Part shown: positions 47,326 through 57,380 of the stretch, piece after piece
Position numbering within the stretch: the first letter of the stretch is position 1
Layout: each line of letters begins with the position of its first letter
NCBI GenBank assembly: GCA_019637585.1
Contig: JAHBVL010000004.1
Coordinates: 248,001 to 312,000 of the forward strand
Direction: 5' to 3'
DNA length: 64,000 nucleotides
DNA from: Thermomicrobiales bacterium
GTDB taxonomy: Bacteria; Chloroflexota; Chloroflexia; Thermomicrobiales; UBA6265
The notes under the pieces: generated by a model
What the model was told of the DNA's origin: nothing
What the model saw: the letters and a program-made list of their open reading frames with translations, nothing else
Database searches by the model: none
Position numbers and translations under genes: made by a program

Positions 47326-47445
47326 ATCATCCCCTCTGGTGTGAGACTCTGAGCCGTTTGCACCGCACCCTATCATATGAGCTGACGATGCGCGGACATG
47401 CGGAGCGCAGTTCTCGCGCTCGACGATCCGAAAGGCATGTTTCCA

Positions 47446-48216
47446 ATGGAAGAGAGCAATCCAGTCGCGATTTTGATCGACTTTCCGGACATCAGCGATC
47501 CGGTCCTGCGTCTCACTGCGGCGCCGGCCCGGCTCCAGATCGTGCCGGGCGAGGTCGATCGGTGGGTAACCGGCACCTACACGGAGGTCGAGGGAGGCTC
47601 GGGCTACAAGCTCACCACCTCCGGCAATACGACCCAGCTTTCCAATGACTGGAATGTGGTCAAGCTGCGCAAGGGGCTTCCCGTGTTCGATCTCGAACTT
47701 GGCCGGAGCAAACCGTACGGTTTGATCGTCGAATCAGGGGCGAGTGACAAAAACCGCTGTGACTTTGGCGGACTGCCGTTGACCTCGCTCGACTTCAAGC
47801 AGGGAGCAGGAGAGATCGTTCTCGACTTCGCCGCCCCGAATCCAGAGGAAATGACACGATTCACCGTTTCATCGGGAGCGGCATCGGTCGAGCTGCGTAA
47901 CCTGGCCAACGCGAATGCCGCGGAGATTGCGATCACCGGTGCGGCAGCGGCGATGTTGATCGACTTCTGTGGAGAGCTCAGGCGCGACACGGTCGCACGC
48001 ATCAACTCGGGTATGGCCGATCTGAAGATCAGCGCTCCCAAGGAAACGGCCGTCAAGATCGTGGCCAAAACCACGCTCGGCCAGATGAAGGTCGGGGACG
48101 GCTTCATGACCAAGGAAGGCGCCTACTGGTCGGAGGCGGCCGTCAAAGGGGAGACTCCCGTTCTGACCATCGATCTCACGACGGCACTGGCATCGGCAAA
48201 GATCTGGCTCGTGTAG
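47446..48216 (+). CDS. Beta-helical toastrack-like protein (LiaF/DUF4097-related, tentative)
   Basis: The start is placed at ATG 47446 (MEESNPVAILIDF) with an AAAGG about 10 nt before; ATG 47437 is also in frame. The 256-residue product is made of short beta strands with a repeating polar rhythm: SLDFKQGAGEIVLDFAAPNP, FTVSSGAASVELRNLANANA, LKISAPKETAVKIVAKTTLG. This is the pattern of the toastrack domains in LiaF-like or DUF4097 proteins. It has no signal, membrane helix or lipobox. In those families the fold helps sense cell-envelope stress, but no LiaRS genes are next to it. The family assignment is moderate. Confidence 0.6.
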   Translation: MEESNPVAILIDFPDISDPVLRLTAAPARLQIVPGEVDRWVTGTYTEVEGGSGYKLTTSGNTTQLSNDWNVVKLRKGLPVFDLELGRSKPYGLIVESGASDKNRCDFGGLPLTSLDFKQGAGEIVLDFAAPNPEEMTRFTVSSGAASVELRNLANANAAEIAITGAAAAMLIDFCGELRRDTVARINSGMADLKISAPKETAVKIVAKTTLGQMKVGDGFMTKEGAYWSEAAVKGETPVLTIDLTTALASAKIWLV

Positions 48217-48397: not shown

Positions 48398-48607
48398 ATT
48401 GGTTTGATGGCGCTTTCGCCCACCTCCGTTTGGGCTTTGCCGCCAATCCGTTTTGCACCGAGCGGAGCGGCGATGTCTTGACATAGTTGCGGTCGGTGCT
48501 TGCGTTCCCTATGATGGGTAACAGCCATACATGCAGAAATCGGGCTGGTCGTCGAGGCAACCGATACCGAAGGCTGTTGCCGAAAACAGATTCACATGGA
48601 GGCAGAC

Positions 48608-51600
48608 GTGAATATCTTGCCTACTGGTTCCCGCCGTCACCTCACGTCTCACTCACGCCTGGCCGTAGCGCTCGGCGTTTTCGCGTTGGTTCTGGCGGTC
48701 GCTGCTCAGATTCTGACGATCGAATCAGCGGACGCCCAGATCACCGCCTCGGTCTCCCTCCAGCCTGATCCTGCCTACGTGCAGATCGACAAATACGACT
48801 GTCCAACCGGTGTCGACTGGTCGCAGGCGTCGTACGACCAGCTGGCCCAGGGCTGCGGACCGAATCAGAGCCCGGTGGCGATCACAGTCAATGGTGAAAC
48901 GCTGGCCGTCAGCGGTTCGGCCACGTGGGGTCCGTACCAGGACGTGACCTTCTTCGAGATCAGTGAGGAACAGCGCCAGGGATATGGGCCGCCGCATGTG
49001 CTGTGCGGACCATACGTCCCGAACGTCAGCCAACCGAACCTGCAGTATGGCGGCAGCACCTTCTATTCGAGCTGGCAGATTCAACCCGGCGAGTCGCTCT
49101 ATTGCCAGATGTTCAACTACCAAACCGGCAATCAGTTCGCCGCGCTGATTCTGCCCACGTACGCCTGCCCGGATAGCTGGGATTGGCAGGATCCATATGC
49201 CGCGCCGCTGGACCAGCTCAGCCAGGTTTGTGGGCAGAGGCTCCCCAACGTCCAGTTCGACTACCAGATCGACGGACAGGTCGCCGGTCAGCTGACGACC
49301 GACCAGAATGGCGACGCGCAGTGGTCGGAAGCTCCTCCCGGACAGGCGGTGATCCGCGAGCATCTCCCGAGCGGCTACGCATTCGCCGTCGTCCATTGTG
49401 CCTATCAGCCGGCCGAGGCAGCGCAGAACGGCGCCAGCGGCGCGCAGCCCGCGCAGATGCAGAGCGCCGACGCGTTTGCATGGACGCTCGAGAGCGGATT
49501 CGTGCTCGAATGCGCGTCGTTCAACTTCCCGTCCGATCAGATTCAGCTCAACAAATACTGGTGTCCAGAAGATTTCGATCCAGCTGGTCTCTCGTTCGAT
49601 CAGTACGAAACGGCATGTGGCGAGCAGCCCGGGACAGCCGTCGCCTGGAGCATCACGAATCTGACCACCAATCTGCAGGTTGCCCAGGTGATGCCGTCGG
49701 GGAATCCGCCCTCGTACGCTGGCTATCACCAGCTCGAACAGAATCAGGAGATCGCGATCGCGGAGCTGCTGCCGGCGGATTCCGGCTATGGCGCACCGGC
49801 GGTCTTCTGCGGCGAATTCCAACGAGGCGGACCCGCTGGTCAATCCTATGGGGAGATCGATGCGGAAGGCACTGTGCGCTGGACACCCCAGGACGGTCGG
49901 TATCTGGTCTGCAGTTACTTCAATATCCTCGCCCAGGACCAGAACCAGGAAGAGGGGCAAGAAGAGGAAGAGGGGGCCATCGTTTCAGACGAGCTGCAGC
50001 CGGGCAGCTCGGTCACGGTCTACACGTGGGATTGTGAGACAGGCACTGAATACGGGCGGGAGCTGGAGTACTACCAGGGTGGCCTGCCCGATCAGGAAAC
50101 CGGACCGTGCGAAACCGAGCACCTCAACGTGCCGATCGCGCTGATCGATGGAGCCGGCCAGCATCCGACCACAGCACAAGCCAATGGCACGCAATGGGAT
50201 GGCGTGGCGCTCCTCGAAGGCGCCTTCCAGATCGCCGAGCAGGTGCCCGATGGCTACGGCGAACCGATGGTCTTCTGCGGCACGCTCGACGACGAAACGC
50301 AGACGGCGATTCCGGCCACTGGCGGCGCGGTCACGCTGACTCCGGCCTCCGAGCCGTTCACCTACCAGTGCAATTGGTTCAATGTGCCGGAAGCGGCAGA
50401 GACCGGCGATCTCGATGAGACCGACGCCGCCGACGAAACCGGCGACGAATCGACGGTCACCGTCTACAAGTTCGAATGCGAGATGCCAGGCGCCGGATAT
50501 GAGACGCTGCTCGAATGGCAGGAAGCGTGCGATACCCCCGGCGACGATTGGGCGTTCACCCTTACCGACAGCGAAGACAACGCAACCCCAATGACGACCG
50601 CCAGCGGCTCCGCCGCATGGAGCGGGGTGCCGGTAGGCGTATTCACGCTGGCCGAATCGGTCGAACCAGGTTGGGAAGAGCCGGCTGTCTGGTGTGGGTG
50701 GACAGCCTCCTATGAAGGCGCGGTGTACGACGCTTTTCCCACACAAGTCACCACCGCCAGCGGCGTTTTTGCTGGAGAGATCAGCTACCCCGGAACGGAG
50801 TACGTCTGCTACTGGTTCAACATCCCCAGCGATGAAACAACGGTCACGGTACTCAAGTTCAACTGCGAGATGCGGCTCGCCGGGGGGCAATCGCTTATCG
50901 CCTGGATGGAATCCTGCGAGACGCCCGGGGATGGGCGGACCTTCACGCTGACCGACAGCGAAGAGAATGCCAGCCCGATGGTGACCGGCAACGGCTCCGC
51001 CAGCTGGAGTGATGTGCCGCTGGGGACATTCACCCTGGCGGAAACCGCGGAGGCTGGTTGGGGTGAACCGGTCGTCTGGTGCGGATGGACGGCCTTCTAC
51101 AACGGCGCGGTCTACGACGCTTTTCCCGTACAGGTCACCACGACCGACGGCGTTTTTGCCGGTGAGATCACTTACCCCGGAACGAAGTACACCTGTTACT
51201 GGTTCAACGTTCCGGTCGTCGAAACGACGGTCACCGTCCAGAAGTTCATCTGCGACGACCAGCCGGTTGGATTCCAGACTCTGGCCCAGTGGCAAGCCGC
51301 ATGTGAAACGCCCGGCAACGGTCGCACCTTCACGCTGACCGACAGCGAAGCCAACGCGACCCCGCTCGTGACCGCCGGGGGTTCGGCAACGTGGAGCGAC
51401 GTTCCTTTGGGGGCGTTCACGCTGAGCGAGGCCGTGGAACCGGGGTGGGGCGAGCCGGTTGTCTGGTGTGGTTGGACCGCGTTCTACAACGGGGCGGTGT
51501 ACGACGCTTTTCCCGTCCAAGTCACCACGATCGACGGCGTTTTTGCTGGAGAGATCAGCTATCCAGGAACCAGCTACTTCTGCTACTGGTTCAACATCCC

Positions 51601-53845
51601 GGTCGAACACTCCTCGGTGACGGTCTACAAGTTCGTTTGCCCGGACGGTCCGCTGGAAGGGGTCGTGCCGAACCCGCTGGCCGTCTACAGCAGCATGTGC
51701 ACGACACCGGTCAGCGGTATCGACTTCACACTCGAATCGGCTCTGGGGGAGTCGAACGCGACGACGATCGATGGCATCGCCCGCTGGACGAATGTGCCGC
51801 TGGGGGCAATCACGATCACCGAGCATCTGCCGCCCGGCTACGATCCGCCCGTCTGGTTCTGCTACGAGATCGGCGATATCACCCTCGCGACGACCGAGGG
51901 CGTCCAGTCGATCGTGATGAATGACACCGTCCATACCGGGACGATCGTGGGTGTCGGCACGCAGTACATCTGCTACGTCTTCAACTTCCCCGAGCCGGAG
52001 CGCACCGTTGAAGTCCACAAGTGGCTCTGCCCTGAAGGCTATGAGGGCGAAAGCTACGCAGACTGGTCGACGACCTGCACCATGCCGATGGACGGCGTCA
52101 AGTTCACCTTGACCGATGAGAATGGCAGCTGGCCGCTCAATACGGTTGGAGGAGAGGCCGCCTGGTATGGCGTGGCCCAGGGAACCGTGAGTCTCGATGA
52201 GCAGATCCCGCCGGGCTACTTCGAGCCGGTCATCTACTGCTCACTCGAAGTGATCGATGGCGCGGCGTTCGCAGAAGCTCCCACGCTCTACCCCTCCACC
52301 AACGGGCTGATCAGCCGCGAACTGGGCTACAGCGAGTTCCACTGGATATGCCACGTTTTCAACATTCCAAAAGGCCCGGGTGACATCACTTTCTACAAGT
52401 GGTTGTGCCCACCGGGTTACGACATCTACGCCTGGGGAGCGGATCCTGCCTATGACTGCAATCAGCCATACGATGGCGTCACCTTTACCCTCGACCAGCC
52501 CACGGGTCCCAATCTTCAGGCGACAACCGGGAATCCTCTCCCTGGCGCTGTCTATTTCGGCGGGCTCGATCCGGGCGCCTATGTCGCCTGGGAAACGGTG
52601 CCACCCGACATCGATGCTGTTTTCGTGCTCGACTGCACCGGCAGCGACGTCGACAAAGTCCATCCGTATCCGTTGCAATGGGGACACATCCTGACGATCG
52701 TCGTGGCCGGAGGAGACAGCATCGTCTGCAACTGGTACAACGTGCCCGAACCGGAAGAGGGGTGGGTGACCGTCTACAAATACCAGTGCTGGACGCCGGC
52801 GTACACATCGTTCGTCGATTGCGAGATCTACGAGTACGGCGCGACATTCGAGCTCTTCGACGTACCCGGCGACGACTCCTACGGTGTGGGGACGACGAAC
52901 GTTGGCGGTCTCTACACCTGGAACGGTTTGCCGGAGGGCGCCTACGATCTCGACGAGATCAGTCACAAACCGTGCAAGATCACAACGACCAAGCACGACG
53001 GCAACGGCCACATCTGGGTCGATGCCGGCGAGGGCACGGTGGTCAAGGTGTTCAACTGCAAGCAGGACACGCCACCCGGCAAAGTGCCCGACAAATATCC
53101 GAACACCGGCGTCGGGCCGGCAGCAGCCGGCGGGTCGCTGGCAGCGGCGCAGGCGACGCCGGAAGGCACGCCCGACGCATCGGTTGATGACTACTACCGG
53201 ATCAGCTGTCTGGACGCCCCTCCCGCGGCGACTCCTGAAGCGGCCGAAGCATCCGAGCCGGCGGCTGTTCCAACGCCCACACCGGAGGGTGGCGTCGAGG
53301 AGTTCGACCTGCCGGTCGAGGAGGAGGAGATCGTCCCTCCGCCTGATGGATCGCCTGCCCCCGAAGACGAGTGCATTCGCGGCGCCATCCCCGAGCGAGT
53401 GATCATCGATGCCGCGCAGGTCGATGCCGGGGTGGAGATCCTCGAAATCATCGACGGCGTCATGGAGCAGCCGACCGGACCGGAGTTGGTCACCTGGTAC
53501 AAGGAAACCGGCCGTCTGGGTGAAGACAACAACGTTGTCATCGCCGGACACCTGAACTATTGGGGCGTGCCGCAGGGGGTTTTCTTCCATCTCGATCAGC
53601 TCAAGGAAGGTGATCGCGTCGAGATCATCGGCGACGACGGTTTGATCTATGTCTTCGAAGTGCAATGGGTGCGCCAGGAGAGCAACCTCGAACCGCCAGC
53701 GGCAGAGGTCATCGGGCCGACCGACGTACCGAGTCTGACGTTGATCACCTGCGGAGGCGAGTGGAACGCATCGATCAGCGAATACGATGAACGGACCGTC
53801 GCGCGGGCTGTGCAGGTCGAAGTCGTGAGTCCCGAGGAGACGTGA
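48608..53845 (+). CDS. Giant exported repeat protein with YPNTG motif and C-terminal sortase domain
   Basis: The start is GTG 48608, 5 nt after GGAGG; the in-frame ATG at 48596 overlaps that Shine-Dalgarno. The 1745-residue protein has a signal peptide (LAVALGVFALVLAVAAQILT). About eleven repeats follow, each opening with a VxVYKxxC-like strand and closing before the next; they look like SpaA/prealbumin-like pilin domains. Three central repeats (50453-51613) are near-identical with exact 387-bp spacing. YPNTG occurs at 1497-1501 (53096-53110), followed by an Ala/Gly and then a Pro/Glu-rich region. The last about 150 residues are a sortase: VVIAGHLNYWG (His1648), LTLITCGGEW (Cys1715), YDERTVARA (Arg1729). 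An adhesin and its probable transpeptidase share one chain. Substrate and anchoring are inferred. Confidence 0.85.
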   Translation: MNILPTGSRRHLTSHSRLAVALGVFALVLAVAAQILTIESADAQITASVSLQPDPAYVQIDKYDCPTGVDWSQASYDQLAQGCGPNQSPVAITVNGETLAVSGSATWGPYQDVTFFEISEEQRQGYGPPHVLCGPYVPNVSQPNLQYGGSTFYSSWQIQPGESLYCQMFNYQTGNQFAALILPTYACPDSWDWQDPYAAPLDQLSQVCGQRLPNVQFDYQIDGQVAGQLTTDQNGDAQWSEAPPGQAVIREHLPSGYAFAVVHCAYQPAEAAQNGASGAQPAQMQSADAFAWTLESGFVLECASFNFPSDQIQLNKYWCPEDFDPAGLSFDQYETACGEQPGTAVAWSITNLTTNLQVAQVMPSGNPPSYAGYHQLEQNQEIAIAELLPADSGYGAPAVFCGEFQRGGPAGQSYGEIDAEGTVRWTPQDGRYLVCSYFNILAQDQNQEEGQEEEEGAIVSDELQPGSSVTVYTWDCETGTEYGRELEYYQGGLPDQETGPCETEHLNVPIALIDGAGQHPTTAQANGTQWDGVALLEGAFQIAEQVPDGYGEPMVFCGTLDDETQTAIPATGGAVTLTPASEPFTYQCNWFNVPEAAETGDLDETDAADETGDESTVTVYKFECEMPGAGYETLLEWQEACDTPGDDWAFTLTDSEDNATPMTTASGSAAWSGVPVGVFTLAESVEPGWEEPAVWCGWTASYEGAVYDAFPTQVTTASGVFAGEISYPGTEYVCYWFNIPSDETTVTVLKFNCEMRLAGGQSLIAWMESCETPGDGRTFTLTDSEENASPMVTGNGSASWSDVPLGTFTLAETAEAGWGEPVVWCGWTAFYNGAVYDAFPVQVTTTDGVFAGEITYPGTKYTCYWFNVPVVETTVTVQKFICDDQPVGFQTLAQWQAACETPGNGRTFTLTDSEANATPLVTAGGSATWSDVPLGAFTLSEAVEPGWGEPVVWCGWTAFYNGAVYDAFPVQVTTIDGVFAGEISYPGTSYFCYWFNIPVEHSSVTVYKFVCPDGPLEGVVPNPLAVYSSMCTTPVSGIDFTLESALGESNATTIDGIARWTNVPLGAITITEHLPPGYDPPVWFCYEIGDITLATTEGVQSIVMNDTVHTGTIVGVGTQYICYVFNFPEPERTVEVHKWLCPEGYEGESYADWSTTCTMPMDGVKFTLTDENGSWPLNTVGGEAAWYGVAQGTVSLDEQIPPGYFEPVIYCSLEVIDGAAFAEAPTLYPSTNGLISRELGYSEFHWICHVFNIPKGPGDITFYKWLCPPGYDIYAWGADPAYDCNQPYDGVTFTLDQPTGPNLQATTGNPLPGAVYFGGLDPGAYVAWETVPPDIDAVFVLDCTGSDVDKVHPYPLQWGHILTIVVAGGDSIVCNWYNVPEPEEGWVTVYKYQCWTPAYTSFVDCEIYEYGATFELFDVPGDDSYGVGTTNVGGLYTWNGLPEGAYDLDEISHKPCKITTTKHDGNGHIWVDAGEGTVVKVFNCKQDTPPGKVPDKYPNTGVGPAAAGGSLAAAQATPEGTPDASVDDYYRISCLDAPPAATPEAAEASEPAAVPTPTPEGGVEEFDLPVEEEEIVPPPDGSPAPEDECIRGAIPERVIIDAAQVDAGVEILEIIDGVMEQPTGPELVTWYKETGRLGEDNNVVIAGHLNYWGVPQGVFFHLDQLKEGDRVEIIGDDGLIYVFEVQWVRQESNLEPPAAEVIGPTDVPSLTLITCGGEWNASISEYDERTVARAVQVEVVSPEET
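50453..51613 (+). repeat. Three tandem 387-bp coding repeats in the sortase-fused protein
   Basis: Units start at 50453, 50840 and 51227, exactly 387 bp (129 codons) apart, and the following more divergent unit starts at 51614 in the same register. They share long blocks such as GVFAGEISYPGT and WCGWTAFYNGAVYDAFP at the protein level. The high similarity indicates recent duplication or gene conversion, and copy number may vary between strains. Confidence 0.9.
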
Positions 53846-54223: not shown

Positions 54224-54650
54224 GGTCGTTCTGGACACGAACATCCTCGTCAGCGCGCTGATTTCATCGGCGGGATCTGCGGCAGCAGTTGTTGATTGCT
54301 GGCGGGAGCGTCGCTTTCTTCTCCTCTCATCGGATCACCAAATCGACGAACTGCTCGACGTTGTCTCGCGGCCAAGGCTGACAAAGAAATTCCCGGCAGC
54401 GATGCGGGGAAGTGCGCCGCTGGTGAGGCAGATTCTCAGATACGCCGAGTTCGTGAGCCTTGACAGTGGCACTCAGATCGAAATACGAGATCCCAAGGAC
54501 CAATACCTACTGACGATGGCGCAAACGGGCCGCGCAGATATATTGGTCTCGCGTGACGAGGATCTGATCGCGGTGTCCGAGCATCCTGCTCTGAGACCGA
54601 CGATGATCTTGCGGCCGGAAGACTTCCTGGACGCTCTGCGGTCGCGTTAG
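54216..54650 (+). CDS. PIN-domain toxin with apparent CTG start
   Basis: The ordered sequence begins (L)LRVVLDTNILVSALISS, the standard PIN N-terminus, usually preceded by ATG. The in-frame codon at the expected start is CTG 54216, and no ATG, GTG or TTG lies between it and the in-frame stop at 54183. A GGAGAAGG Shine-Dalgarno ends 3 nt before it. The 144-residue product has the acidic residues expected for Mg2+-dependent RNase: D in LDTN, D/E in SSDHQIDELLDVVSRP, and D in RDPKDQYLL and SRDEDLI. PIN toxins cut RNA, with the antitoxin encoded directly upstream. The stop overlaps the convergent oxidoreductase gene by 4 nt. Confidence 0.8.
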   Translation: MLRVVLDTNILVSALISSAGSAAAVVDCWRERRFLLLSSDHQIDELLDVVSRPRLTKKFPAAMRGSAPLVRQILRYAEFVSLDSGTQIEIRDPKDQYLLTMAQTGRADILVSRDEDLIAVSEHPALRPTMILRPEDFLDALRSR

Positions 54651-56737
54651 TCCGCGACGATGGCCAGGTCGACGCTTTCGCGTGTTTCCGCCGGGGTGAG
54701 GCGGAAGTGGTCCATGGTCAGGCACTCGGTTGGGCACCAGTCGACGCAGATGCCGCACCGGATGCACGATCGTTCGTCGATGACCATTGCCGCCGCATAG
54801 GGGCCGAGCTCGGCGCGGGCCATCTGGGCCAGCTCGACGTCATTGTCGATCGAGTAGATGCGGTCGGGCGAGATCATCTCGATGCACTTGTGCGGGCAGG
54901 CGTCGACGCACCCGTTGCAGAGAATACAGCGGTGACCGTCGATGAAGATGTTCAGCTGGCATTGCAGGCAACGCTTGGCCTCTTCGAAGCCGATCGGCTT
55001 CGACAATCCGACTTCGACCTCCAGCGTGGTATCGAGTGATCCGATGCCGCGTGCGTCGACCGGGAGCGTCGGCACGATCTGACGGCCGGTGGCCGAATAG
55101 TCGTCACCCCAGACGAGGCGGCGGCTCATCGCGCTCAACGACCACTCGGCGATGCCCTCGCTCAACAACGAGTTCGGCGTGGAGATGTACTCGGTCGGGA
55201 CGCGGGTGATCTCCATGTCCTTGACCGGTTTTTCGGCGCCGCGCATCTGCTTGTCGACCATCTCCGCAACGCGCTTGCCTTCGCCGATCGACGAGATGAA
55301 GTTCGTCGGGTTGATCACAAAGTCGCCCGCCGCCCAGACATTCGGCAATTCGGTTCGGAGGCTCTCATCCAGCAGAGGCACACCGCGGCGATCGCGGTTT
55401 GGCAGCGAACTCCCCAGGAAGGAGCTGTCCTGCTTCTGGCCGATTGCCGAGATGACCATATCGCATTCGATGATGAACTCGGAACCGGGCACCGGCTCTG
55501 GCCGCCGCCGGCCGCGAGCATCGGGCGCCCCGAGCTCGTTACGAATCAGCTCGATGCCGATCACATTCCCTTCCGAGTCGCCGATGATCTGGGTGGGAGC
55601 GACCATGTACATGATCTCCACACCCTCGATTTCGGCTTCCTCGATCTCCAGCTCTTCGACCGGGATCTCATGAACCGACCGGCGATAGGTCATGATCGAC
55701 GTTTCGGCGCCCATGCGAAGCACCGTGCGGACGCAGTCCATCGAGGTGAAACCACCGCCGACAGTCACCACCCGCTTGCCGACCCAGACATCGTCTTTGC
55801 CCAGATTGACATCTTCGAGGAAGCCAATACCGGTCACGACCCCCTTCAGGTCTTCGCCCGGGATGCCCATTGACTGCGCGATCTGACAGCCGACCGACAG
55901 AACGACCACATCGTAGGCGTCGACCAGATCCTGGAACGCGATGTCTTTGCCGATTTCCGTGTTGTACTTGATTTCGATTCCCAGATCGGTGATCAGCTCG
56001 ACTTCATCGGCGATCACGTCACGCGGCAGACGCCATTCCGGCACGCCGGTCCACATCACGCCGCCCGGAACGGGGTACTTCTCGTAGATCGTCACCTTGT
56101 AGCCGCGCCGGGCCAGTTGCCGGGCCGTGGTCAGCCCGTTGACGCCGGCGCCGACGATACCGGCGGTCAGGCCATTCCAGGCGGGAGGAACCTCGCGACG
56201 GGTTTCGCCGCGATAGTCGGACGCGACCCGCTTGAGATAGCAGATGCCGATCGGCGCGTCGACTTCCTTGCGCCGGCAGGCGTCTTCGCAGGGACGCGCG
56301 CACATCCGACCGAGACAACCGGGAAAGACGTTGTGTTCCCGGTTCAGCTCGAAGCTGTCCGCATACCGGCCGTCCGCAATCAGGGCGATGTACCGGGAGA
56401 TGTCGGTGTGCGACGGGCAGGCCGTCATGCACGGGATGTTGTCCTGGAACCATTGCGCATCGCCGGAGAAGATCTGATAGCGCTTGCCGGTTCGCTCCGT
56501 GTAGGCGGAAAAGAAAGATGCGTCGACAAAGGAAAGCAGACGGATGCGCCGGGTGTCCTCGACCTCGATGTCAAATCCCTGACCAACGATGCCATGGCTG
56601 GCCAGCTGGCCAGTGGCCACACCAACCTCGGCTTTGTCCATCGGCCGGAAGCGGTCGGGTGGCGAACCGCAGGAAGGGCATTCTGCCGGTGGCACGACGC
56701 CATCGTGAATCCAGGCGCAGACAGTGCAGCGGAACAT
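54647..56737 (-). CDS. Fusion oxidoreductase: rubredoxin-like head, GltD-like flavoprotein, 2x[4Fe-4S] ferredoxin tail
   Basis: The 696-residue enzyme has three parts. The N-terminal rubredoxin-like domain has CxxC pairs (FRCTVCAW and CPSCGSPPDRF). The middle is like the glutamate synthase small subunit: Fe-S cysteines (CMTACPSHTDISRYI, GCLGRMCARPCEDAC), FAD motif GAGVNGLTTARQLARRG, NAD(P)H motif VGGGFTSMDCVRTVLRMG and WAAGDFVINPTNFISSIGEG. The C-terminal ferredoxin has CILCNGCVDACPHKC and CIRCGICVDWCPTEC. Such proteins move electrons between NAD(P)H, ferredoxin and partner enzymes. A rubredoxin head on this framework is unusual. No glutamate synthase large subunit is nearby. The 247 nt upstream of its start hold no gene. 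Confidence 0.9.
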   Translation of the reverse strand: MFRCTVCAWIHDGVVPPAECPSCGSPPDRFRPMDKAEVGVATGQLASHGIVGQGFDIEVEDTRRIRLLSFVDASFFSAYTERTGKRYQIFSGDAQWFQDNIPCMTACPSHTDISRYIALIADGRYADSFELNREHNVFPGCLGRMCARPCEDACRRKEVDAPIGICYLKRVASDYRGETRREVPPAWNGLTAGIVGAGVNGLTTARQLARRGYKVTIYEKYPVPGGVMWTGVPEWRLPRDVIADEVELITDLGIEIKYNTEIGKDIAFQDLVDAYDVVVLSVGCQIAQSMGIPGEDLKGVVTGIGFLEDVNLGKDDVWVGKRVVTVGGGFTSMDCVRTVLRMGAETSIMTYRRSVHEIPVEELEIEEAEIEGVEIMYMVAPTQIIGDSEGNVIGIELIRNELGAPDARGRRRPEPVPGSEFIIECDMVISAIGQKQDSSFLGSSLPNRDRRGVPLLDESLRTELPNVWAAGDFVINPTNFISSIGEGKRVAEMVDKQMRGAEKPVKDMEITRVPTEYISTPNSLLSEGIAEWSLSAMSRRLVWGDDYSATGRQIVPTLPVDARGIGSLDTTLEVEVGLSKPIGFEEAKRCLQCQLNIFIDGHRCILCNGCVDACPHKCIEMISPDRIYSIDNDVELAQMARAELGPYAAAMVIDERSCIRCGICVDWCPTECLTMDHFRLTPAETRESVDLAIVAD

Positions 56738-56984
56738 CGAAGTTCAGTCCTCCAGGCTTTCCAGACATGCGCCGATCGATCATCGAACAGGGCGCATGGT
56801 GTTCGCCACAAGTATACCGACCCTTCAAGGCCGCGGAGTAGTTCGAATTCGCCAGCATGACCGAATATCAGTCCGAAGAGGACATAGGCTATTATTGACG
56901 AGTAGCGAGCGGCTCTGAACTCAGGTGGCAAAGGTGTCTGCCGGCAGGGGTTCTGTCGCACTCGATGCGCGAAAGGAGACCTCG

Positions 56985-57380
56985 ATGGGACTGGGCGATA
57001 TCTTCAATGATCTGAAGGCCAAAATCACAGGGACGGCCTCGAAAGCGGAAGGTTCGGTGAAATCGGCAGGCGATCAGGCTAAGGCGACCGCAGAAAAGAG
57101 CACCGCCGATGCCAGGAAAGCTGCCGATGATGCCAAGGCGTCGGCTGAAAAGGCGACTGAAGATGCCAAGGGGACCGTTGACAAGGTTGTCGATGGCGCC
57201 AAGGATGCCGCCGACAAGGTGGTAGATGGCGCCAAATCGGCCGCCGAAGAAGGCAAGGGCGCGGCTGACAAAGTCGTGGAAGAAGCCAAGGGCGCCGCGG
57301 AGAAGGCTGGCGACGAGATCAAGGCTGCGGTCGACAAGGCGAGCGCCAAAGCGAACGAAGTGATCGACAAGACCAAGTAG
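56985..57380 (+). CDS. Amphipathic 11-mer-repeat (LEA/apolipoprotein-like) protein
   Basis: The ATG at 56985 has AGGAG 6 nt upstream. After a short head (MGLGDIFNDLKAKITGTA), the 131-residue product is a nearly continuous Lys/Ala/Asp/Glu helix with an 11-residue rhythm (AADKVVDGAKSAAEEGKGAA, ADKVVEEAKGAAEKAGD). This is the pattern of group-3 LEA or YtxH-like stress proteins that protect membranes or proteins during drying. No Cys, Trp or signal is present. It lies alone on the plus strand, followed by an intrinsic terminator. Confidence 0.8.
   Translation: MGLGDIFNDLKAKITGTASKAEGSVKSAGDQAKATAEKSTADARKAADDAKASAEKATEDAKGTVDKVVDGAKDAADKVVDGAKSAAEEGKGAADKVVEEAKGAAEKAGDEIKAAVDKASAKANEVIDKTK

Follow-up and report, generated by a model that had tools for sequence, protein, structure and literature searches.

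Sortases are regarded as separate enzymes that act on many substrates. Those of class C join pilins through lysine and carry an active-site lid with the motif DP[WFY]. To our knowledge, natural sortases do not cut and attach their own chain. Such fusions have been engineered, however, and these sortase-LPETG constructs (Mao; BISOP) cleave themselves (PMC2901362). In our searches of the open-access literature (subscription journals and preprints were outside our scope), we found the engineered constructs, but no description of a natural substrate-sortase fusion.

Here, we describe a gene from a soil-type Chloroflexota bacterium of a Thermomicrobiales family that unites a pilin-like stalk, an xPxTG motif and a sortase in one chain. 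It lies on the 64,000-nucleotide stretch of DNA that was analysed (the window, to which the following coordinates refer) and is composed of these parts:

48608-53845, + strand: whole fused gene (1745 amino acids), comprising a stalk of SpaA/CnaB repeats, YPNTG, linker and sortase
48608-48736, + strand: signal peptide, LAVALGVFALVLAVAAQ...ADA/Q, cleavage likely after residue 43 (read from the sequence)
48779-53065, + strand: eleven SpaA/CnaB-like repeats with four cysteines each (Pfam, alignment, fold model)
53096-53110, + strand: YPNTG sorting-like motif, residues 1497-1501 (sequence and fused homologs)
53111-53374, + strand: flexible, acidic Ala/Pro/Glu-rich linker with two cysteines (1534, 1589) and without a hydrophobic segment
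53375-53842, + strand: sortase domain, Pfam PF04203, class-F-like (Pfam, NCBIfam, fold model)
53549-53551, + strand: catalytic His1648, within AGHLNYW (homolog alignment)
53750-53752, + strand: catalytic Cys1715, within LITCGG (homolog alignment)
53792-53794, + strand: catalytic Arg1729, within SEYDERT (homolog alignment)

The initial annotation of this DNA had claimed a 1745-residue chain with eleven cysteine-containing repeats, a YPNTG motif at 53096-53110 and a C-terminal sortase with the catalytic residues listed above, and all of this was borne out. The open reading frame starts with GTG (an alternative ATG is located at 48596) and has no internal stops, each repeat contains exactly four cysteines, and His, Cys and Arg are invariant across the fused homologs described below. 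That the fusion is an assembly or sequencing artefact was considered and rejected, because a second copy exists in the same genome and homologs are found in independent assemblies.

With respect to the enzyme, the domain scores 61.4 bits in Pfam (cut-off 26.6; E 9.4e-17), and its model matches solved sortases with a Foldseek E of about 1e-8 and a VIA Z of 15. It thus combines a score above the curated cut-off, the sortase fold and the catalytic His, Cys and Arg, as members of the sortase superfamily do. An inactive sortase fold had been named as an argument against the initial reading; the model instead has an intact fold with intact catalytic residues, and the domain is a predicted transpeptidase. 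Its best NCBIfam match is the class F model NF033748, which is covered over nearly its full length (6-152 of 155) with 87.1 bits, under the cut-off of 166, such that the sortase is class-F-like only. It further differs from class F sortases in its location C-terminal to a large stalk.

The stalk, in turn, resembles the isopeptide-containing pilins and adhesins of the SpaA/CnaB type. Pfam recognises a SpaA prealbumin-like domain (93.9 bits, E 6.8e-27), and the structure prediction that the initial annotation had proposed as a check gave a pilin/CnaB-like fold for one modelled repeat (pLDDT 95, a fold prediction). The top Foldseek matches of this model were the S. pyogenes major pilin (Spy0128) and the CnaB domain of FbaB (CnaB2), from which SpyCatcher was derived, and VIA matches also included BcpA, SpaA, SpaD and Sdr-type B domains. 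Within the fused protein, the lysine of the CnaB triad is present in nine of the eleven repeats (it is absent from repeats 2 and 4), and the glutamate and asparagine are kept. Across 19 aligned repeats from this protein and its relatives, the glutamate, the asparagine and the four cysteines are found in all 19 and the isopeptide lysine in 18. The repeats hence show both the prealbumin-like fold and the Lys-Glu-Asn triad of a SpaA/CnaB isopeptide domain, and we infer that they contain Lys-Asn isopeptide bonds as well as disulfides. What the fused protein adds to the known pilins and adhesins is the set of four conserved cysteines per repeat and the C-terminal sortase.

Since the repeats resemble those of pilins, one might expect that copies of the stalk are joined head to tail through lysine in a class C-like manner, and it had indeed been suggested earlier that the enzyme may join copies into polymers. 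We found little support for this suggestion. A few lysines do lie outside the isopeptide positions, but the whole chain contains just 22, most of which are isopeptide lysines (nine) or lie near the motif (several more). Furthermore, no pilin motif was recognisable in the chain on inspection, and no partner pilin gene adjoins the fused gene among the ORFs of the window. We therefore regard a polymerising pilin as very improbable.

A search for this architecture in Chloroflexota, as had been proposed, found it in ten proteins from nine of the 32 genomes of the GTDB family, namely this genome (two copies), G132, G136, G144, G145, G149, G154, G156 and G157. All ten carry YPNTG or YPDTG, which excludes that homologs consistently lack the motif; the cis arrangement of repeats, motif and sortase that the initial annotation had singled out is real, conserved and unusual. 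The paralogue in this genome (contig 1, L001/L066) has SpaA-like repeats, YPNTGVGP and a sortase in one open frame, while the gene of G144 is truncated by the end of its contig. The initial annotation mentions neither this paralogue nor two features described below, the hairpin of the relatives and the xPxTG segment of the standalone sortases. Alignment placed seven named homologous loci in metagenome assemblies of Thermomicrobiales/Chloroflexia, including UBA6265 and AVDCRST_MAG49, whereas a scan of genome contigs with a fragment of the window gave no match; in viral contigs, no fused homologs were found. The fused sortases form one clade in the tree (support 100/99), which also holds one unfused sortase (L129 in G147), and no pilin gene adjoins the latter on its contig.

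The motif consensus in the fused homologs is YP[ND]TG, mostly followed by [VL]GP, and the threonine and glycine are never degenerate. Mean pairwise identity, calculated for nine of the ten fused proteins, is 0.92 in the motif (eight columns), as compared to 0.27 in the linker, 0.39 in the last pilin repeat and 0.50 in the sortase. The codons of the motif vary at synonymous positions among the fused genes, and it is therefore the protein motif that is kept. A degenerate DNA pattern for YP[ND]TG[VL] gave 11 matches, nine of them in fused proteins, versus five for a reversed control pattern, and judging from these comparisons the occurrence of the motif is not due to chance. One could argue that motif and sortase are functionless remnants of the fusion, in line with a frameshift inside the sortase part of the G157 gene (maybe an assembly error). 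However, the frame is open in the nine other fused proteins, and few positions of this fast-diverging protein are as conserved as the motif and the catalytic residues, such that an evolutionary relic is scarcely credible.

The fact that the relatives keep the same arrangement suggests that the fused protein probably cuts and attaches itself. We lean towards the view that it is a natural substrate-sortase polyprotein working mainly in cis, which would cut YPNT/G and transfer its stalk to the envelope.

In this context, a comparison with the unfused pilins of the family is instructive. Among 20 unfused SpaA pilins that were read to their ends, 19 carry xPNTG (with P, A, Q, E or G as x) and one LPVTG, and in most of them the motif precedes a hydrophobic stretch and arginines. 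One further unfused pilin, in G144, does have YPNTG. The association of YPNTG with the fusion is strong (Fisher exact p 2.5e-7, shared ancestry ignored), but because the fused sortases form one clade, it represents a maintained association and not ten independent events; the tyrosine at the first motif position may thus go back to one event rather than ten.

These data also bear on the question whether YPNTG is cut in trans by a separate housekeeping sortase, in which case the fused sortase would serve other substrates and the fusion would couple only expression and location. This genome encodes five sortase domains, three of them on other, separate ORFs, and the unfused YPNTG pilin of G144 shares its contig with a fused protein, both of which would fit with processing in trans. 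However, in the two genomes for which both fused and canonical unfused pilins were read, this one (G000) and G156, the unfused pilins bear PPNTG or LPVTG, not YPNTG, which argues for separate specificities. Also, a substrate without a membrane helix, as here, would not be retained at the membrane until a separate enzyme could act on it. We therefore consider processing in trans unlikely.

The membrane helix itself deserves a closer look. A canonical LPXTG sorting signal is tripartite, and the window protein has the xPxTG motif, but neither a hydrophobic helix after it nor a charged C-terminal tail. The initial annotation was correct on this point for the window protein, though the absence is derived in it and its paralogue and is not a trait of the family, since a hydrophobic segment with arginines follows the motif in the fused relatives as it does in most unfused pilins. 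In G136, G154 and G156, a weakly hydrophobic stretch comes after YPNTG, then SRRxFLxR or TRRRMLK and a hydrophobic run, which together correspond to a Tat-like signal peptide, and then the sortase. The post-motif region of G144 and G145 resembles this, and in G149 and G132 it comprises a clear pair of hydrophobic helices with a loop rich in arginine. The fused relatives thus display, in one frame, YPNTG, a hydrophobic stretch, arginines, a Tat-like or Sec-like signal and the sortase, and the standalone sortases of the family start with signals of the same kind. Because the relatives retain both the remains of a sorting signal and the signal peptide of a sortase, the sequences indicate that the fusion joined a complete pilin gene, including its sorting signal, to a complete sortase gene, including its signal peptide. 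With the resulting hairpin topology in the relatives, the motif and the enzyme would both face outwards. In the window protein and its paralogue, the hairpin has been lost and the motif is unchanged.

Other Chloroflexota harbor what looks like the ancestral state, judging by gene order, in the form of adjoining substrate and sortase genes. In G119, G121, G123 and G403 (L253, L255, L254, L258), a surface protein that ends in LPNTG, LPATG or LPQTG, a helix and arginines is encoded with a sortase gene that starts a few bases after its stop codon, and these pairs are apparently translationally coupled. Similar pairs with less exact motifs are found in G173, G233 and G423. Compared to Gram-positive sortase/LPXTG systems, with which our protein shares the sortase fold, the His-Cys-Arg residues, the xPxTG motif and the SpaA/CnaB stalk, and whose arrangement as gene pairs is seen in these Chloroflexota relatives, our fusion unites enzyme and substrate in a single polypeptide and has lost the hydrophobic segment and charged tail behind its motif.

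Long fusions of surface proteins with sortases also exist in distant Chloroflexota families (L143, L144, L145, L146, L150). G228 and G375 encode DUF11-type surface proteins with LPNTS, a helix, arginines, a second helix and a sortase, and a relative of these in G249 lacks a clear motif. G235 has LPNTG ahead of the sortase in one chain, and G307 encodes carboxypeptidase-regulatory-like domains fused to a sortase, with a pair of LPNTG motifs but no helix. The sortases of G228, G375, G235 and G307 lie elsewhere in the tree, which indicates that these fusions arose separately. Two further groups were rejected as candidates: the fusions of G363 and G286 (L148, L151, L152), in which a large DELRATGGYIGS-type extracellular domain precedes the sortase, resemble the others in frame length but have no sorting motif, and the long frames of G398 and G303 are not clear substrate fusions. 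By eye, the DELRATGGYIGS extracellular domain of G363 and G286 is DUF4012-like.

The most serious structural rival to self-cutting is a role of the motif as a lid. Here, YPNTG would sit uncut in the active site as a pseudo-substrate and regulate a sortase that is displayed at the end of the stalk. Of the 45 standalone sortases of the family, 31 have a segment of the form xP[ST]TGxxRPGP, or close to it, after the signal peptide and ahead of the core, with degenerate forms in some (PSFG, PSYG) and an AGPLGLN remnant in one sub-clade; two standalone sortases of this genome (L002 1495-2139 and L004 1483-2373, both on the - strand) carry it as MPTTGGLRPGP. It looks like a substrate-mimic lid, and the fact that standalone sortases have such a motif of their own, sometimes degenerate, is what suggests a lid role for YPNTG as well. 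In addition, alignments to class C sortases and to B. anthracis SrtA start at residues 103-109 of the AlphaFold model, just ahead of the motif at 113-117, such that the stretch preceding the core may be positioned in the vicinity of the active site, as is the class C lid. Confidence in this part of the model is low (pLDDT 43-46), docking of the motif at the active site is accordingly putative, and this counts against our favored explanation. However, instead of DP[WFY], the fused protein has a complete xPxTG motif that originates from a sorting signal. The threonine and glycine of this motif are never degenerate in the fused proteins, and most relatives retain after it what is left of a complete sorting signal. 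A lid or pseudo-substrate function thus appears distinctly unlikely to us.

Returning to self-processing in cis, the following sequence of events can be envisaged. The chain would be exported through its N-terminal signal peptide, and the folded repeats would form a rigid stalk, stabilised by the isopeptide bonds and disulfides. The flexible linker is long enough to let YPNTG reach the active site of its own C-terminal sortase, where Cys1715 would cut between Thr1500 and Gly1501 and bind the stalk in a thioester linkage. This would then be resolved by an envelope amine, most simply that of a peptidoglycan precursor, such that the stalk is anchored and the sortase is freed. In the relatives with a hairpin, the same T/G cut would leave an ordinary membrane-anchored sortase, while in the window protein the sortase would be released in soluble form. 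This genome encodes one FemAB protein and four transpeptidases of penicillin-binding type, which makes peptidoglycan a plausible acceptor. With motif and enzyme tethered to each other, a sorting signal would no longer need its membrane helix, in agreement with the loss of this helix in the window protein. We infer the cleavage, its cis nature and the nucleophile and acceptor. We give about an even chance to the broader proposition that this is a self-processing sortase with one cut per molecule, that the helix was lost by way of the cis route, and that Chloroflexota have come upon the same solution several times. The engineered sortase-LPETG fusions likewise combine a sortase with its own motif in one chain (PMC2901362), but they are man-made and have the sortase N-terminal to the motif, whereas the present fusion is natural and its sortase is C-terminal.

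The conserved stalk-motif-sortase chain, the separate fusions and the unfused gene pairs as likely ancestors together make sorting in cis testable. The fused family also illustrates how the membrane anchor of a sorting signal can disappear, and with its YPNTG motif it is a candidate natural source of a self-cleaving ligation module.

Some further observations concern the surroundings of the fused gene and its genome. A 272-residue protein without a Pfam match is encoded 5′ of it (47398-48216, + strand). On its other side are a 696-residue ORF (54647-56737, - strand) with a rubredoxin-like start, a GltD-like FAD oxidoreductase and two ferredoxin-type cysteine clusters, and an LEA-like protein built from KAADDAKASAEK-type repeats, of the sort known from desiccation tolerance (56925-57380, + strand). 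Elsewhere in this genome (L199, G000 contig 15, 12000-21951), another SpaA-repeat protein has an open frame of >3300 amino acids that runs to the end of the contig.
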